Assembly: GCA_023266195.1 (NCBI GenBank)
Contig: JAHFRP010000004.1
Location: 62,001 to 126,000, forward strand
DNA: 64,000 bases
Source of the DNA: Sulfuricella sp.
GTDB lineage: Bacteria; Pseudomonadota; Gammaproteobacteria; Burkholderiales; Sulfuricellaceae
Direction of reading: 5' to 3'
The notes beneath the pieces are model-generated. The model made no database searches. It was not told the origin of the DNA and worked only from the letters and a program-made list of their open reading frames with translations. The first letter of the stretch is position 1; every line of letters starts with the position of its first letter. Both the position numbers and the translations under genes were made by a program. Shown here one piece after another: positions 13,850 through 54,689 of the stretch.

Positions 13850-15130
13850 ATGTTCAACAATTCAACGGTTGCCCAATCCAAGGCCGGATTGGCCCAGATC
13901 GAGGCGGAATACATCGCCCACAGCCTGATGAAGGATGTGCCGGTGGTGACGCCGCAGCACACCAACGACGACGTGCTCAGACTGCTGACCGACCAGCCGG
14001 AAGTCATCGGGCTGCCCGTGGTCGAGAACGGGCGGCCGATCGGACTGATCAACCGCAACATTTTCATGGACGGCTTCGCCAAGCCCTTCCGCCGCGAGCT
14101 TTACAGCCGCAAGAGCTGCATCGCTTTCATGGACAAGGAGCCGCTCGTCGTCGACCGGAACCTGTGCATCCAGGATCTGAGCTTCAAGGTGGTCGGCGCC
14201 GGCGGCAAGACCCTCAACGACGGCTTCATCATCACCGGCGAGGACGGCAGCTACCTCGGCATCGGCACCGGCGAGGATCTGGTGCGGGTGGTTTCCCACC
14301 TGCAGGCGGAAAAGAACCGGCTGGTGATGGAAAGCATCAACTACGCGAGCATCATCCAGAAATCGTTCCAGCGCTCGTCGAAGGAAGACCTCGCCGCCTC
14401 GCTCGACGACTATTTCATGCGCTGGGAGCCGCGCGACCGGGTGGGCGGCGATTACTACTTCTGCAAGAAATTCGACGACGGCTTTTTCTTCGCCCTGATC
14501 GACTGCACCGGCCACGGCGTGCCGGGCGCGTTCATGACGCTGATCATGGCGTCCTTCCTCGACCACATCCTGCTGGAAGACAACCGCCACGACCCCGCCG
14601 GCGCGCTGTCGATCATGAACCGCAAGGTCAAGACCTCCCTCGGCCAGATCGGCGAACAGAACATCGTATCCATCGATGGCTCCCGGCATGCGCACGACGG
14701 CCACGAACGCTCCGACGACGGCATGGACACGGCGTTCTGCTGGGTCAATCCCGCCGCGGGCAAACTGGTCTACGCCGGCGCCAAGACGCCGATTTTCTTC
14801 ATCGCGGAAGGCGCCGCCGAAGTCGGCCTGCTGGAAGGCGACCGCAAAGGCGTGGGCTACGTCGATACGCCGATGGACTACACCTGGACCAACAAGGAAA
14901 TCGCCCTGTCGCGGGGGATGCGGCTGTACCTGACCACCGACGGCATCATCGACCAGATCGGCGGCCCGAAGGAGATTTCCTTCGGCAAGAAGCGCTTCTC
15001 CGGCCTGCTGCTGGAACACCACCAGAAGCCGATGGCGGAGCAGGAGGAACTCATCATGCAGGCGTTTTACCAGTACCAGGGCAAGCAGCGCCGGCGCGAC
15101 GACGTCAGTTTGATAGGGTTCAGGGTCTAG
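13850..15130 (+). CDS. SiaA-like SpoIIE/PP2C phosphatase with N-terminal CBS-type domains
   Basis: CBS-like N-terminus; ASIIQKSFQ, DRVGGDYYFCKKF, FFALIDCTGHGVPGAFMTLI, YLTTDGIIDQIG. Confidence 0.85.
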   Translation: MFNNSTVAQSKAGLAQIEAEYIAHSLMKDVPVVTPQHTNDDVLRLLTDQPEVIGLPVVENGRPIGLINRNIFMDGFAKPFRRELYSRKSCIAFMDKEPLVVDRNLCIQDLSFKVVGAGGKTLNDGFIITGEDGSYLGIGTGEDLVRVVSHLQAEKNRLVMESINYASIIQKSFQRSSKEDLAASLDDYFMRWEPRDRVGGDYYFCKKFDDGFFFALIDCTGHGVPGAFMTLIMASFLDHILLEDNRHDPAGALSIMNRKVKTSLGQIGEQNIVSIDGSRHAHDGHERSDDGMDTAFCWVNPAAGKLVYAGAKTPIFFIAEGAAEVGLLEGDRKGVGYVDTPMDYTWTNKEIALSRGMRLYLTTDGIIDQIGGPKEISFGKKRFSGLLLEHHQKPMAEQEELIMQAFYQYQGKQRRRDDVSLIGFRV

Positions 15131-15200
15131 CGTGAAACTCGCGAAGCGAGACCTCGTCCCCCTCGCCCGCTTGCGGGAGAGGGTTAGGGGAGAGGGTTAG
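15131..15200. repeat. Palindromic repeat family copy 1 (minimal form)
   Basis: GTGAAACTCGCGAAGCGAGACCTCGTCCCCCTCGCCCGC..GCGGGAGAGGGTTAGGGGAGAGGGTTA; shared with 20343-20462 and 36138-36262. Confidence 0.85.
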
Positions 15201-16282: not shown

Positions 16283-17215
16283 CTACGACTCGGCGGATAA
16301 CGCTATCGCCCGCCGCGCCGGCAGCCTGTCGGCGCGCCAGTGGGTTAGCGCCCACTCCCACAACGATTCAATCCCGGCGTCCCTCGATTCCGGCGGCGGT
16401 GTCTGGCCAAGAAACATCAGCACCGCGAACAGCGCGTCCGCCGGATCGCCCGCGCTCACCGCCGGCGCCAGGGTCTGCTTGCTGAGTTTTTCGCCCCGTT
16501 CGTTCACCGCCACCGGCAGATGCAGGTAGGCCGGGGTGGGCAGGCCGAGCAGGCGTTGCAGGGTGATCTGGCGCGGCGTGGAGTCGAGCAGATCGGCGCC
16601 GCGCACGACGTGAGTGACCGCTTGCTCGGCGTCGTCCACCACCACCGCGAGCTGATAAGCGAACAGGCCGTCGGCGCGGCGGATGACGAAATCGCCCACT
16701 TCCGCGGCCAGATTCTGGCCTACCCGCCCTTGCAAGCCATCGTCGAACTCGACCACGCCGGAATCGGTGCGAAGACGCACGGCGCGGGCGCTGCGCCCGG
16801 CCGGCAGGCCACCGCGGCAGGTGCCGGGATAGACCGGGCCGTCGATGCCGCCGAGGGCGGAATCGGCGATTTCCTTGCGGGTGCAGGCGCACGGGTACAC
16901 CGCGCCGAGTTTCTCCAGTTCGGCCAAGGCGGCGCGATAGGCTTCGTCGCGCGCGCTCTGCGCCAATACCGGGCCGTCCCAGTGCAGGCCGAACGCCTCC
17001 AGCGTGCGCAGGATGCCGTCCGCCGCGCCGGGCACGACGCGGGGCAAATCCAGATCTTCCATCCGCACCAGCCATTCGCCGCCGCGGCTGCGGGCTTCGA
17101 GAAAGCTGCCCACCGCCGCCAGCAGCGAGCCGAAATGCAGCGGCCCGGTCGGCGAAGGCGCGAAGCGGCCGCGATAAAGGGGAAGGGATTTTTCTGCCGG
17201 CATCTTGAAACTCAT
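16283..17215 (-). CDS. gluQ: Glutamyl-Q tRNA(Asp) synthetase
   Basis: YRGRFAPSPTGPLHFGSLLAA...CACTRKEI...RGADLLDSTPRQI...GEKLSKQ. Confidence 0.94.
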   Translation of the reverse strand: MSFKMPAEKSLPLYRGRFAPSPTGPLHFGSLLAAVGSFLEARSRGGEWLVRMEDLDLPRVVPGAADGILRTLEAFGLHWDGPVLAQSARDEAYRAALAELEKLGAVYPCACTRKEIADSALGGIDGPVYPGTCRGGLPAGRSARAVRLRTDSGVVEFDDGLQGRVGQNLAAEVGDFVIRRADGLFAYQLAVVVDDAEQAVTHVVRGADLLDSTPRQITLQRLLGLPTPAYLHLPVAVNERGEKLSKQTLAPAVSAGDPADALFAVLMFLGQTPPPESRDAGIESLWEWALTHWRADRLPARRAIALSAES

Positions 17216-17262
17216 GGTGATCGAACCCATCGAATCATAACAAACTAGCCACAGGAGGCACC

Positions 17263-18713: not shown

Positions 18714-18738
18714 CCGGAATGCGGCATGAAGTAGCGGC

Positions 18739-18838
18739 TTCCCCCTTTAACAAAGGGGGATTGAGGGGGATTTAACGATGGATGCTCTTTGGCGCATGTT
18801 CAAATCCCCCCTAGCCCCCCTTTTTCAAAGGGGGGAAC
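18739..18838. repeat. Dispersed C/G-tract inverted repeat (TTCCCCCTTT..AAAGGGGGGAA)
   Basis: TTCCCCCTTTAACAAAGGGGGATTGAGGGGGATTT ... AAATCCCCCCTAGCCCCCCTTTTTCAAAGGGGGGAA; copies at 33692-33788 and 51796-51894, half copy at 27934-27957. Confidence 0.85.
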
Positions 18839-18963: not shown

Positions 18964-19046
18964 CACCCCTGAATCAAGTTGACTGACTACTACGATCTCT
19001 ATCGGCGTTTATCTGCGTTAATCGGCGGTTAAACAAGGTTTTCAGC

Positions 19047-22000
19047 ATGAACCCAGCCCCTTCCCTCACCGCCCTGCGCGCCGCCGTCGGCGCGGCCCAC
19101 CTGACGGACGAAACCGCCTGCGTGGAACGGCTGCTGCGCGAGGCGCGGCTGGACGAGCCGCTGCAACGGCGAGTCGGCGGCGATGCCTTGCGGCTCGCGG
19201 CGTCGGCGCGGGCGCATCCGTCGTCCGCCCTGGCCGACGCGCTTCTTCACGAATACGACCTGTCTTCCGAGGAAGGCGTGCTGCTGATGTGCCTCGCCGA
19301 GGCGCTGCTGCGCATCCCCGACGCGGCCACCGCCGACCGCCTGATCCACGACAAGCTGGCGCAGGGACATTGGCTGCGCCACCTGGGCCACAGCCCTTCG
19401 GCGCTGGTCAACGCCTCCACCTGGGGGCTGCTGTTCACCGGCAAACTGGTCAAACTGCACGACGCCGGCGCGCTGCTGGAGCGCATGGCCGTGCGCATCG
19501 GCGAATCGGCGGCGCGGCTGGCGCTGAAACGGGCCATGAGCCTGCTCGCCGATCATTTCGTCTTCGCCCGCACCATCGAAGAAGCGCTGCAAACCACCCT
19601 GCACGACGAATACCGGACGAGCCGCTTTTCCTTCGACATGCTGGGCGAGGCCGCGCTCACCGCCGCCGACGCCGGGGAACATTTCGCGGCCTATGCCTGC
19701 GCCATCCGCGCCATCGCCATGACAACCGATGGCGGGCCGGACGCGCCGGGCATTTCGGTCAAGCTGTCCGCGCTGCACCCGCGCTTCGAGCACGCCCAGC
19801 GCGAGCGCGTGCTGGCGGAACTGGCGCCGCGTCTGGCGGAACTGGCGGAGCTCGCCGCCGCCGCGAACATCGGCCTGACGGTGGACGCGGAGGAAGCCGA
19901 CCGCCTGGAAATCACCCTGGACGTGTTCGAGGCGGCCTGCCGCCGCCTCCAGCCGACCGCCTGGAACGGGCTGGGGCTGGCCGTGCAGGCCTACCAGAAG
20001 CGCGCGCCGGCGGTGCTCGACTGGCTCGGCGCGCTGGCGCGGGAGCTCGGCGGCCCGCTGCCGGTGCGCCTGGTCAAAGGCGCCTACTGGGACAGCGAAA
20101 TCAAGCGCGCCCAGGTGCAGGGGCTGGCCGGCTATCCGGTGTACACCCGCAAGTCGGCCACCGACGTGTCCTACCTCGCCTGCGCCCGGCGCCTGCTCGC
20201 CCGCCCCGACCTGTTCGCCCCCATGTTCGCCACCCACAACGCCCATGCCGTCGCCTATGTGCAGGCGGTCGCGGGCGACGGCGGCAATTTCGAATTTCAG
20301 CGCCTGCACGGCATGGGCGCGGCGCTCTACGCGGAAATCGGCGCCCTCTCCCCTAACCCTCTCCCGCAAGCCCTAAAGGACTCCGATCCGCTACGGGCTA
20401 AAGCCCGTGCGGAGTCGTATGCGGGAGAGGGGGACGAGGGCTCGCTTCGCGAGTTTCATGTTACCCGCCCCTGCCGCATCTACGCGCCGGTGGGCGGCCA
20501 CCGCGAGCTGCTGCCCTACCTCGTCCGCCGCCTGCTGGAAAACGGCGCCAACACCTCGTTCATCAACCGGCTGGCCGACCCGGCCACGCCGCTCGCCGCC
20601 GTGGTTGCCGACCCCGTCGCGACGCTGGCCTCCCATCCCGCCAAGCCCAACCCGCGCTTTCCGCTGCCGGCCGCACTCTACGGCGACGAACGGCGCAATT
20701 CGGCGGGCCTGTCGCTGGCCGATCCGGCCGCGCTGGCCGCTCTCGCCGAGGGCATGGACCTGGCCTGGGCGCGGGAATGGCTGGCCGCGCCGGTGGTGGG
20801 CGGAAAGACCGTGGCGGGCGAGCCGCGCCGCATCGCCGACCCGTCCGACCGCCGCCGCAGCGCCGGCAGCGTGATCGAGGCGGACGAAGCCGCGCTGGAA
20901 CGGGCGCTGGCGCTGGCCGCCGCGGCGGCACCGGGCTGGGATGCCGCTCCCGCCGAAACCCGCGCGGCCTGCCTCGACCGCGCCGCCGACCTGTTCGAGG
21001 CGCACCGCACCGAGCTGATGGCGCTGTGCGTGCGCGAGGGCGGCAAATGCATTCCCGACGCCCTGGCCGAAGTACGCGAGGCCGTCGATTACTGCCGCTA
21101 CTACGCCCACCTCGCGCGGCGCGATTTCGCCGCGCCGCAAGTGCTGTCGGGCCCGGCGGGAGAACTCGACACGCTCGCGCTGCACGGCCGGGGCGTGTTC
21201 GCCTGCATCAGCCCGTGGAATTTTCCGCTGGCGATTTTCGTCGGCCAGGTTGCGGCGGCGCTGGCGGCCGGCAACGCGGCCGTCGCCAAGCCGGCCAGCC
21301 GGACGCCGCTGGTCGCCGCGCTCGCCGTGCGCCTGCTGCACCAGGCCGGCATTCCTGCCGATGTCCTGCATTTCCTGCCGGGCGCGGGCGGCACGCTGGG
21401 GCTCGCGCTGGCGGCCGATGCGCGCGTCGCCGGCGTGGCCTTTACCGGTTCGACGGAAACGGCTCACCGCATCCAGCTCGCCCTGGCGGCGCGGCCGGGG
21501 CCTATCGTGCCGTTCATCGCCGAGACCGGCGGGCAGAACGCCCTGATCGCCGACAGCTCCGCCCTGCCCGAGCAGTTGGTGAACGATGCCGTCCAGTCCG
21601 CCTTCAACAGCGCCGGCCAGCGCTGCTCGGCGCTCAGGGTGCTGTTCGTGCAGGAGGAGATCGCCCCGCGCATCATTGAACTGCTGGCCGGCGCGATGGC
21701 CGAGCTCCGCGTGGGCGACCCGGCGCGGCTTGCCACCGACGTCGGCCCGGTGATCGACGAAAACGCGCTCGCCGTGCTGGAACGGCATGTCGGATTTCTG
21801 GAAACGCATGGCCGCCTGATCGGCCGCGCGCCGCTGCCCGCCGGGACCGAACAGGGCTGCTTCTTCGCCCCGCGCGCCTATGAAATCCCCGATCTCGCCC
21901 TGCTCGAACGCGAGGTGTTCGGGCCGATCCTGCACGTCGTGCGCTACCGCGCCGATCGGCTCGACCAGGTCGCCGCCGCCGTCAACCGCACCGGCTACGG

Positions 22001-22265
22001 CCTGACCTGCGGCATCCACAGCCGCATCGGCGAGACCGTCGATTTTCTCCAAAGCCGGCTCCGCGTCGGCAACCTCTACGTCAACCGCAACCTGATCGGC
22101 GCCGTCGTCGGGGTCCAGCCGTTCGGCGGCGAAGGGCTGTCCGGCACCGGCCCCAAAGCGGGCGGGCCAAATTATTTACAGCGTTTCGCGCTGGAGCGGG
22201 CGGTGGCGGTCAACACCGCCGCCGTGGGCGGCAACGCGTCGCTGTTGTCGGGCGGGGAAGACTGA
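19047..22265 (+). CDS. putA: Bifunctional proline dehydrogenase / L-glutamate gamma-semialdehyde dehydrogenase
   Basis: VRLVKGAYWDSEIKRAQVQGL, RPCRIYAPVGGHRELLPYLVRRLLENGANTSF, ACISPWNFPLAIF, PFIAETGGQNALI, NSAGQRCSALRV. Confidence 0.95.
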   Translation: MNPAPSLTALRAAVGAAHLTDETACVERLLREARLDEPLQRRVGGDALRLAASARAHPSSALADALLHEYDLSSEEGVLLMCLAEALLRIPDAATADRLIHDKLAQGHWLRHLGHSPSALVNASTWGLLFTGKLVKLHDAGALLERMAVRIGESAARLALKRAMSLLADHFVFARTIEEALQTTLHDEYRTSRFSFDMLGEAALTAADAGEHFAAYACAIRAIAMTTDGGPDAPGISVKLSALHPRFEHAQRERVLAELAPRLAELAELAAAANIGLTVDAEEADRLEITLDVFEAACRRLQPTAWNGLGLAVQAYQKRAPAVLDWLGALARELGGPLPVRLVKGAYWDSEIKRAQVQGLAGYPVYTRKSATDVSYLACARRLLARPDLFAPMFATHNAHAVAYVQAVAGDGGNFEFQRLHGMGAALYAEIGALSPNPLPQALKDSDPLRAKARAESYAGEGDEGSLREFHVTRPCRIYAPVGGHRELLPYLVRRLLENGANTSFINRLADPATPLAAVVADPVATLASHPAKPNPRFPLPAALYGDERRNSAGLSLADPAALAALAEGMDLAWAREWLAAPVVGGKTVAGEPRRIADPSDRRRSAGSVIEADEAALERALALAAAAAPGWDAAPAETRAACLDRAADLFEAHRTELMALCVREGGKCIPDALAEVREAVDYCRYYAHLARRDFAAPQVLSGPAGELDTLALHGRGVFACISPWNFPLAIFVGQVAAALAAGNAAVAKPASRTPLVAALAVRLLHQAGIPADVLHFLPGAGGTLGLALAADARVAGVAFTGSTETAHRIQLALAARPGPIVPFIAETGGQNALIADSSALPEQLVNDAVQSAFNSAGQRCSALRVLFVQEEIAPRIIELLAGAMAELRVGDPARLATDVGPVIDENALAVLERHVGFLETHGRLIGRAPLPAGTEQGCFFAPRAYEIPDLALLEREVFGPILHVVRYRADRLDQVAAAVNRTGYGLTCGIHSRIGETVDFLQSRLRVGNLYVNRNLIGAVVGVQPFGGEGLSGTGPKAGGPNYLQRFALERAVAVNTAAVGGNASLLSGGED
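20343..20462. repeat. Palindromic repeat family copy 2, inserted in frame inside putA (opposite orientation to copies 1 and 3)
   Basis: CCCTCTCCCCTAACCCTCTCCCGCA..TGCGGGAGAGGGGGACGAGGGCTCGCTTCGCGAGTTTCA; the centre contains a nested GGACTCCG..GGGCTaaAGCCC..CGGAGTC palindrome. Confidence 0.85.
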
Positions 22266-39624: not shown

Positions 39625-39702
39625 TTAACCGCCGATTAACGCCAATAAACACAGATTACTCCCTGGAAGTATCGGTGTTTATTGGCGTTAATCGGCGGTT
39701 AA
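39625..39702. repeat. Long perfect inverted repeat
   Basis: TTAACCGCCGATTAACGCCAATAAACAC / GTGTTTATTGGCGTTAATCGGCGGTTAA (28-bp arms, 22-nt loop); one arm resembles ~18997-19033. Confidence 0.85.
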
Positions 39703-51747: not shown

Positions 51748-51795
51748 GGAGCAGGGAGTTAGCTTTACTTTGTCAGATTGAATTCGCATAGCGCC

Positions 51796-51894
51796 TTCCC
51801 CCTTTGAAAAAGGGGGATTGAGGGGGATTTAAAAATGCCGGCAGTCGTGGTGCCGCTTTAAATCCCCCCTACCCCCCCTTTTTCAAAGGGGGGA
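51796..51894. repeat. Dispersed C/G-tract inverted repeat
   Basis: TTCCCCCTTTGAAAAAGGGGGATTGAGGGGGATTT...AAATCCCCCCTACCCCCCCTTTTTCAAAGGGGGGAA. Confidence 0.85.
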
Positions 51895-52003
51895 ACATTA
51901 CCGTCAGCCAAGTCTGACAAAGTGGAATTAGGAGTGGGGAGAAAAACCGGCGCTATTTTTTCTTCACTCCTAACTCCTTGCTCCTCACTTACCAGGAAAA
52001 ACC

Positions 52004-54611: not shown

Positions 54612-54689
54612 GTAGGTCGGGCACCCTGTGCCCGACGGCTTCGATGGCCCGCGAGCGGAATTTTGTCGGGCACGGGGTGCCCGACCTAC
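54612..54689. repeat. GTAGGTCGGGCACC palindromic repeat overlapping the 3' end/stop of the PPK2 gene
   Basis: GTAGGTCGGGCACCCTGTGCCCGAC ... GTCGGGCACGGGGTGCCCGACCTAC. Confidence 0.85.

Follow-up and report, generated by a model that had tools for sequence, protein, structure and literature searches.

The window analysed here, a stretch of 64,000 nucleotides from Sulfuricella sp., carries putA (19047..22265, + strand), which encodes a bifunctional proline dehydrogenase / P5C dehydrogenase of 1072 aa in a single unbroken open reading frame (ORF) with the Pfam domains Pro_dh, Aldedh, Pro_dh-DNA_bdg and the N-terminal PRODH domain. Within this gene lies, in frame, a dispersed modular palindrome of 124 nt (20341..20464, − strand). 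The original prediction had placed such a repeat at 20343-20462; the in-frame repeat was confirmed by the sequence, the ORF and the empty site in the congener G011, and its location stood, with the exact ends shifted to those given here. On the + strand the insert reads as GALSPNPLPQALKDSDPLRAKARAESYAGEGDEGSLREFHVT, approximately 40 extra residues (including ALSPNPLPQALKDSDPLR...GEGDEGSLR) between LYAEI and RPCRIYAPVG. Homologues had been said to pass almost directly from LY to RPC at this point, which is roughly right, other PutAs having about 5 to 12 residues there. Coding was called from codon bias and homology; the hairpin in putA is probably translated.

Read as its reverse complement, the insert is TAACATGAAA-CTCGCGAAGCGAG-CCCTCGTCCCC-CTCTCCCGC-[apex]-GCGGGAGAGGG-TTA-GGGGAGAGGG. 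Its parts, all on the − strand, are the left terminus TAACATGAAA (20454..20463; family consensus TTAACGTGAAA), the small terminal hairpin CTCGCGAAGCGAG (20441..20453), the core palindrome arms CCCTCTCCCGC (20421..20431) and GCGGGAGAGGG (20357..20367), the nested apex module ATACGACTCCGCACGGGCTTTAGCCCGTAGCGGATCGGAGTCCTTTAGGGCTT (20368..20420) between these arms and the second purine block GGGGAGAGGG of a triplex-like core (20344..20353). The apex exceeds the short apex by 51 nt, and the module, a 51-nt palindrome (ATACGACTCCGCACGGGCTTTAGCCCGTAGCGGATCGGAGTCC...), is common to several other copies. The insert had been taken to be exactly the repeat found at 15131. That repeat, an intergenic short-apex half-element (15128..15200, + strand), belongs to the same family and has arms matching the putA copy (100% complementarity for a 28-nt arm and 88% for a 48-nt arm against 15128-15196), and like the putA copy it is without the right-hand hairpin of full-length copies; the identity breaks down at the apex, where the putA copy has the extra 51-nt palindrome. 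A third copy in the window (36135..36319, + strand) is full-length and has the right-hand hairpin; its long apex is a different one. The repeat is not due to chance: the sequence CCCTAACCCTCTCCCGC (≤3 mismatches) had 3 matches in the window versus 0.26 expected, a number reached in 0 of 100 shuffles.

Copies were frequent throughout the genome. The hairpin CTCGCGAAGCGAG occurred exactly 47 times in 3.12 Mb, and a genome-wide search with a covariance model of the element, a check proposed with the original prediction together with a count of in-frame insertions, gave 96 hits in the source genome (E ≤ 1e-3), with copies in frame in other proteins, and 102 hits in G011. Hits to the element model were present in 22 of 22 genomes of the family (E ≤ 1e-5). 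In a sample across the class (75 genomes, one per family), searched with a stricter cut-off and stricter filters than the family (E ≤ 1e-10), the full-length model matched the source genome and 0 of the 74 others. Rfam held no family for the element, its two subthreshold matches both being to unrelated families. Full-length copies have the structure TTAACGTGAAACTCGCGAAGCGAG...core...GGAAACGGTCATGGCGAATCGCC...GGCGATTCGCCATGACCGTTAG, with termini TTAACG...CGTTAG, and measure about 130 nt with the short apex and 170 to 240 nt with longer apex modules. Many copies, the putA copy among them, are half-elements that stop after GGGGAGAGGG, of 70 nt or, with nested apex modules, 121 to 127 nt. The DNA consensus folded far better than shuffled sequences (z = −7.95). 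Most copies lie outside genes.

We compared putA with its relatives. The PutA proteins of the window and G011 are 88% identical (1030 aligned codons), and at the point of the insert putA of G011 reads ATCGACAAGTCCCGGCCC, 7 nt versus 124 nt in the window; the insert thus adds a net 117 nt, or 39 codons. Alignment with a relative lacking the insert, as had been suggested, therefore found an empty site. That relatives might have the same residues encoded by DNA unlike the repeat was not borne out, as the sampled relatives lack the residues. The claim that a dispersed palindrome became coding with the frame intact was upheld by the empty site, the 39-codon difference and the dozens of DNA copies elsewhere. 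PutA of G011 has an in-frame copy of its own (126 nt; ...VSLREFRVNR, after residue 191 or 192) about 240 residues upstream of the window insert, in the same orientation and frame, at a site that is empty in the window (19617..19622, + strand). These reciprocal empty and filled sites mean that one family inserted twice in one gene, in two sister species. The second insertion, the nested module and the many other host genes described below had not been part of the original prediction. Public genomes supplied 80 putA loci, 78 of them with a usable long ORF; in one, from Methylomonas sp. WSC-7 (L136:5282-5425), the loop that holds the window insert also has an insert. The Methylomonas insert is an in-frame 119-nt dispersed palindrome with 46 hits in its own genome and is unrelated in sequence to the window element; its presence in the same loop is independent convergence. 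A putA match in a Betaproteobacteria MAG (L091:4001-8519) spanned approximately 4.5 kb, not 3.2 kb.

The insert was also mapped on a PutA structure, as had been proposed. An AlphaFold2 model based on an alignment of 32 PutAs (mean pLDDT, 84; pTM, 0.87) was mostly confident outside the insert, had the PutA fold and matched solved PutA structures, and the sequence alignment to these structures broke exactly at the insert. Residues 434 to 470, between a helix (425-431) and a strand (476-482), had pLDDT values of <50, so that the insert occupies a predicted disordered loop in an otherwise confidently predicted fold. The insertion site in G011 PutA is likewise between a helix (177-183) and a strand (193-198). 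Because the insert lies in a predicted disordered loop, the folding and function of PutA are most likely retained. The gene was found in only 2 of 12 same-genus genomes searched, which makes the need for it uncertain and would fit a putA that is decaying in this lineage, with the in-frame reading being a matter of luck before loss. We regard this as highly improbable, since the ORF is intact, the catalytic stretches are conserved, dN/dS between the window and G011 was 0.25 (NG86) or 0.10 (YN00) with similar values on either side of the insert, and in-frame copies occur in genes essential elsewhere. Purifying selection acts on the putA sequences flanking the insert.

Another explanation is that the insert was selected for a function, in which the peptide or a strong mRNA hairpin would tune PutA, for instance in how its domains couple, how it associates with the membrane or how fast it is translated. 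The insert RNA indeed folded more stably than shuffled sequences (−66.4 versus −44.8 kcal/mol; z = −5.55), and PutA was struck three times independently, twice in one loop. However, the insert is predicted to be disordered, the same peptides turn up in unrelated proteins, each of the PutA insertions was found in a single one of the species compared, and repeated use of one loop is equally explained by tolerance, all of which make a selected function very unlikely.

Retrieved copies were scanned for coding sequence on both flanks, and hosts were confirmed by protein families. Since a strict test on 150-nt flanks overlooked genuine cases, the host list is based on homology; it leaves out long open frames from the first protein search, e.g., G011:C49 (952 aa) and G000:C8:214656 (397 aa). 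In-frame hosts in the source genome were IleRS, ValRS (a short fragment), Lnt, FolC, an HrpA-like helicase, an MFS transporter and an LplA-like protein, and those in G011 were EgtB, GluQRS, DapC, an ArnT-like protein, an LplA-like protein, an MFS transporter, ValRS, HrpA and a Qrc-like molybdopterin/iron-sulfur oxidoreductase with two in-frame copies; DnaE of G011 contained most of the apex module alone, in frame. Seven further sites were empty in the other species, with IleRS and Lnt filled in the source genome and EgtB, GluQRS, DapC, the ArnT-like gene and DnaE (apex module only) filled in G011. One of these, gluQRS, lies in the window (16283..17230, − strand) and is empty, while its ortholog in G011 has the in-frame copy. 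ValRS, HrpA and MFS share their copies between the two species, the inserts of the LplA-like gene are related between the species without being the same, and for FolC and the Qrc-like gene no ortholog was found in the other of the two genomes. Several candidates were dropped: L263, with both flanks coding-like in one frame, consists of two genes with an intergenic copy between them, and L272, L281, L294, L297, L222 and L006 are likely spurious or N-terminal readings.

The element family has thus entered about a dozen other proteins in two species, always in frame, and repeat insertion is therefore a recurring source of new protein loops. Other bacteria cannot do without DnaE, IleRS and ValRS. 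Because repeats readily cause assembly errors, the putA insert might be an artefact of assembly or binning. The probability of this is negligible, since an assembly error does not account for independent insertions seen in both genomes and in about 14 genes, every one in frame; moreover, the contig of the window is 238 kb long, and the listed completeness and contamination of the assembly are 100% and 0.03%.

The capacity to be read through was assessed in copies inside and outside genes. In the consensus full element 2 of 6 frames are open, and in a half-element with the putA apex only 1 of 6, antisense frame −2, the one used in putA. Among half-elements outside the listed host genes (n = 94), frame −2 was open in 88 and two other frames in 73 and 71; lengths were 1 mod 3 in 77 of these 94 and in 12 of 12 half-elements matched to host genes. 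Since the frames are mostly open outside host genes too, the capacity for read-through is a property of the element, and selection in genes picks frame and site. Counted from peptides, there were 12 independent half-element events, 9 of them in frame −2 (PutA twice, IleRS, Lnt, FolC, DapC, ArnT-like and Qrc-like twice) and 3 in sense frame +2 (MFS, EgtB and GluQRS); the third usually open frame, which is arginine-rich, was used in 0 of 12. With three frames equally likely, frame −2 in at least 9 of 12 events has a probability of about 0.004 and the absence of the third frame one of about 0.008, both post hoc. The bias could partly reflect a strand preference of insertion.

We favor, with a probability of about 0.88, the explanation that a small non-autonomous palindrome present in the genus and family entered putA, in frame, once the lineage had separated from G011, and was tolerated in a loop. 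The element, whose dispersal, empty and filled sites, frame and open reading were observed, would spread through genomes of the genus and family as such a palindrome. It would have entered putA in antisense orientation and in the frame most often open among copies, adding the 39 net codons, and its peptide would sit, predicted to be disordered, in the loop that precedes strand beta-8 of the proline dehydrogenase barrel. Insertions in a wrong frame or in the protein core would have been purged by selection, and in-frame insertions in loops would have survived because they are tolerated there. The same process may have put the family into the dozen or so other genes of the two species. A broader version, in which a triplex-forming mobile repeat serves a bacterial family as a general means of inserting loops into its proteome, with open frames of fixed phase kept in the nested module lengths, and repeatedly remodels housekeeping enzymes, some inserts gaining function, seems doubtful.

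Palindromes in frame inside proteins are known from Rickettsia palindromic elements (RPEs; Ogata, Claverie and colleagues; PMC10969869, PMC3733652), and entry of the same gene at several sites has been reported for RPEs and REPs (PMC10969869, PMC3733652). Like RPEs, the window element is a dispersed palindrome, roughly 100 to 150 bp, found in frame in many unrelated housekeeping genes with the frame kept open. It differs in organism group, in its modular, nested apex palindromes and triplex-like core and in that most copies lie outside genes. The likeness to RPEs drawn in the original prediction is thus apt as a description of behavior and not of membership, RPEs being compared by description and the core fitting a relaxed triplex-motif consensus. 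REPs with GTAG or CGTC tags also occur within ORFs, in Opitutus, Thauera, Thioalkalivibrio, Xanthomonas and others (BMC Genomics 2013, PMC3733652), and are likewise translated in known proteins, sometimes at different sites of one gene. However, a single REP is 20 to 40 bp long and ends in GTAG/CGTC, and RAYT enzymes are associated with the GTAG type (PMC3733652), whereas the window element measures 70 to 240 nt, starts with TTAACG, has no GTAG or CGTC tetranucleotide at its ends and does not have its left hairpin or core beside a Y1 transposase. Enterobacterial RU/ERIC small mobile sequences in ORFs (Delihas 2007, PMC2759123) are MITE-like repeats similarly fused in frame with genes; they were described from enterobacteria and are compared here by description. 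The core, CCCTCNCCC-loop-GGGNGAGGG-loop-GGGNGAGGG, resembles in sequence the intrastrand triplex motif TMECO of E. coli, which is found there exclusively between genes and has been associated with genome instability (Holder and colleagues 2015, PMC4666352). The strict form, CCCTCNCCC N3-6 GGGNGAGGG N3 GGGNGAGGG, had 21 distinct matches in the stretches retrieved from the two genomes, where relaxed TMECO-like matches were also frequent. The putA copy does not match the strict form and fits only if the first loop is long and the second 4 nt; most copies differ from TMECO in having a 4-nt second loop or a long, nested first one, and, in contrast to the intergenic E. coli motif, copies of the element are read in proteins.

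In-frame palindromes were thus already known, and what is new is a distinct modular element that behaves like RPEs, with unusually clean reciprocal evidence. It offers a system outside Rickettsia, two congeners with reciprocal sites, for how mobile palindromes add protein segments. In sister species the element entered one enzyme at two sites, and in another lineage an unrelated repeat entered that enzyme too; the hosts include DnaE, IleRS and ValRS, whose loss of function should be lethal. Whether inserts are neutral loop passengers and which frames selection allows become testable.

As to mobility, the element probably inserted by transposition. The two genomes contain 13 Y1_Tnp loci (one just below the family cut-off), none of which adjoins the left hairpin or core; one has a right-hairpin-like match. 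Mobilisation by RAYT was considered, and no link was found, with no Y1 gene beside the left hairpin or core; in a search for a parent that covered Y1 transposases, none was tied to the element. With regard to the features of a MITE, pairs of empty and filled junctions had no clear target-site duplication, and the ends of this short, dispersed element match over only about 6 nt (YTAACG/CGTTAR).

Other repeats occur nearby. A second dispersed palindromic repeat (CCCCCTTT...AAAGGGGG) is present at 18732-18838, 33686-33791 and 51789-51896. This repeat, unrelated to the putA element, is also in frame in IleRS of the source genome (L041:2604-2738), with 97% identity over 34 nt to 18802-18835 and 51860-51893 of the window; IleRS of G011 has a different extra segment at this spot. 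Members of a further inverted repeat family (TTAACCGCCGATTAACGCCAATAAACA) lie at 39625-39702 and 19000-19045. Classic GTAG REP palindromes (GTAGGTCGGGCAC...GTGCCCGAC) were found at 54612-54689 and 57751-57778, and the same ordinary REPs lie on both flanks of one Y1 transposase (L344; G000:C15:265442).
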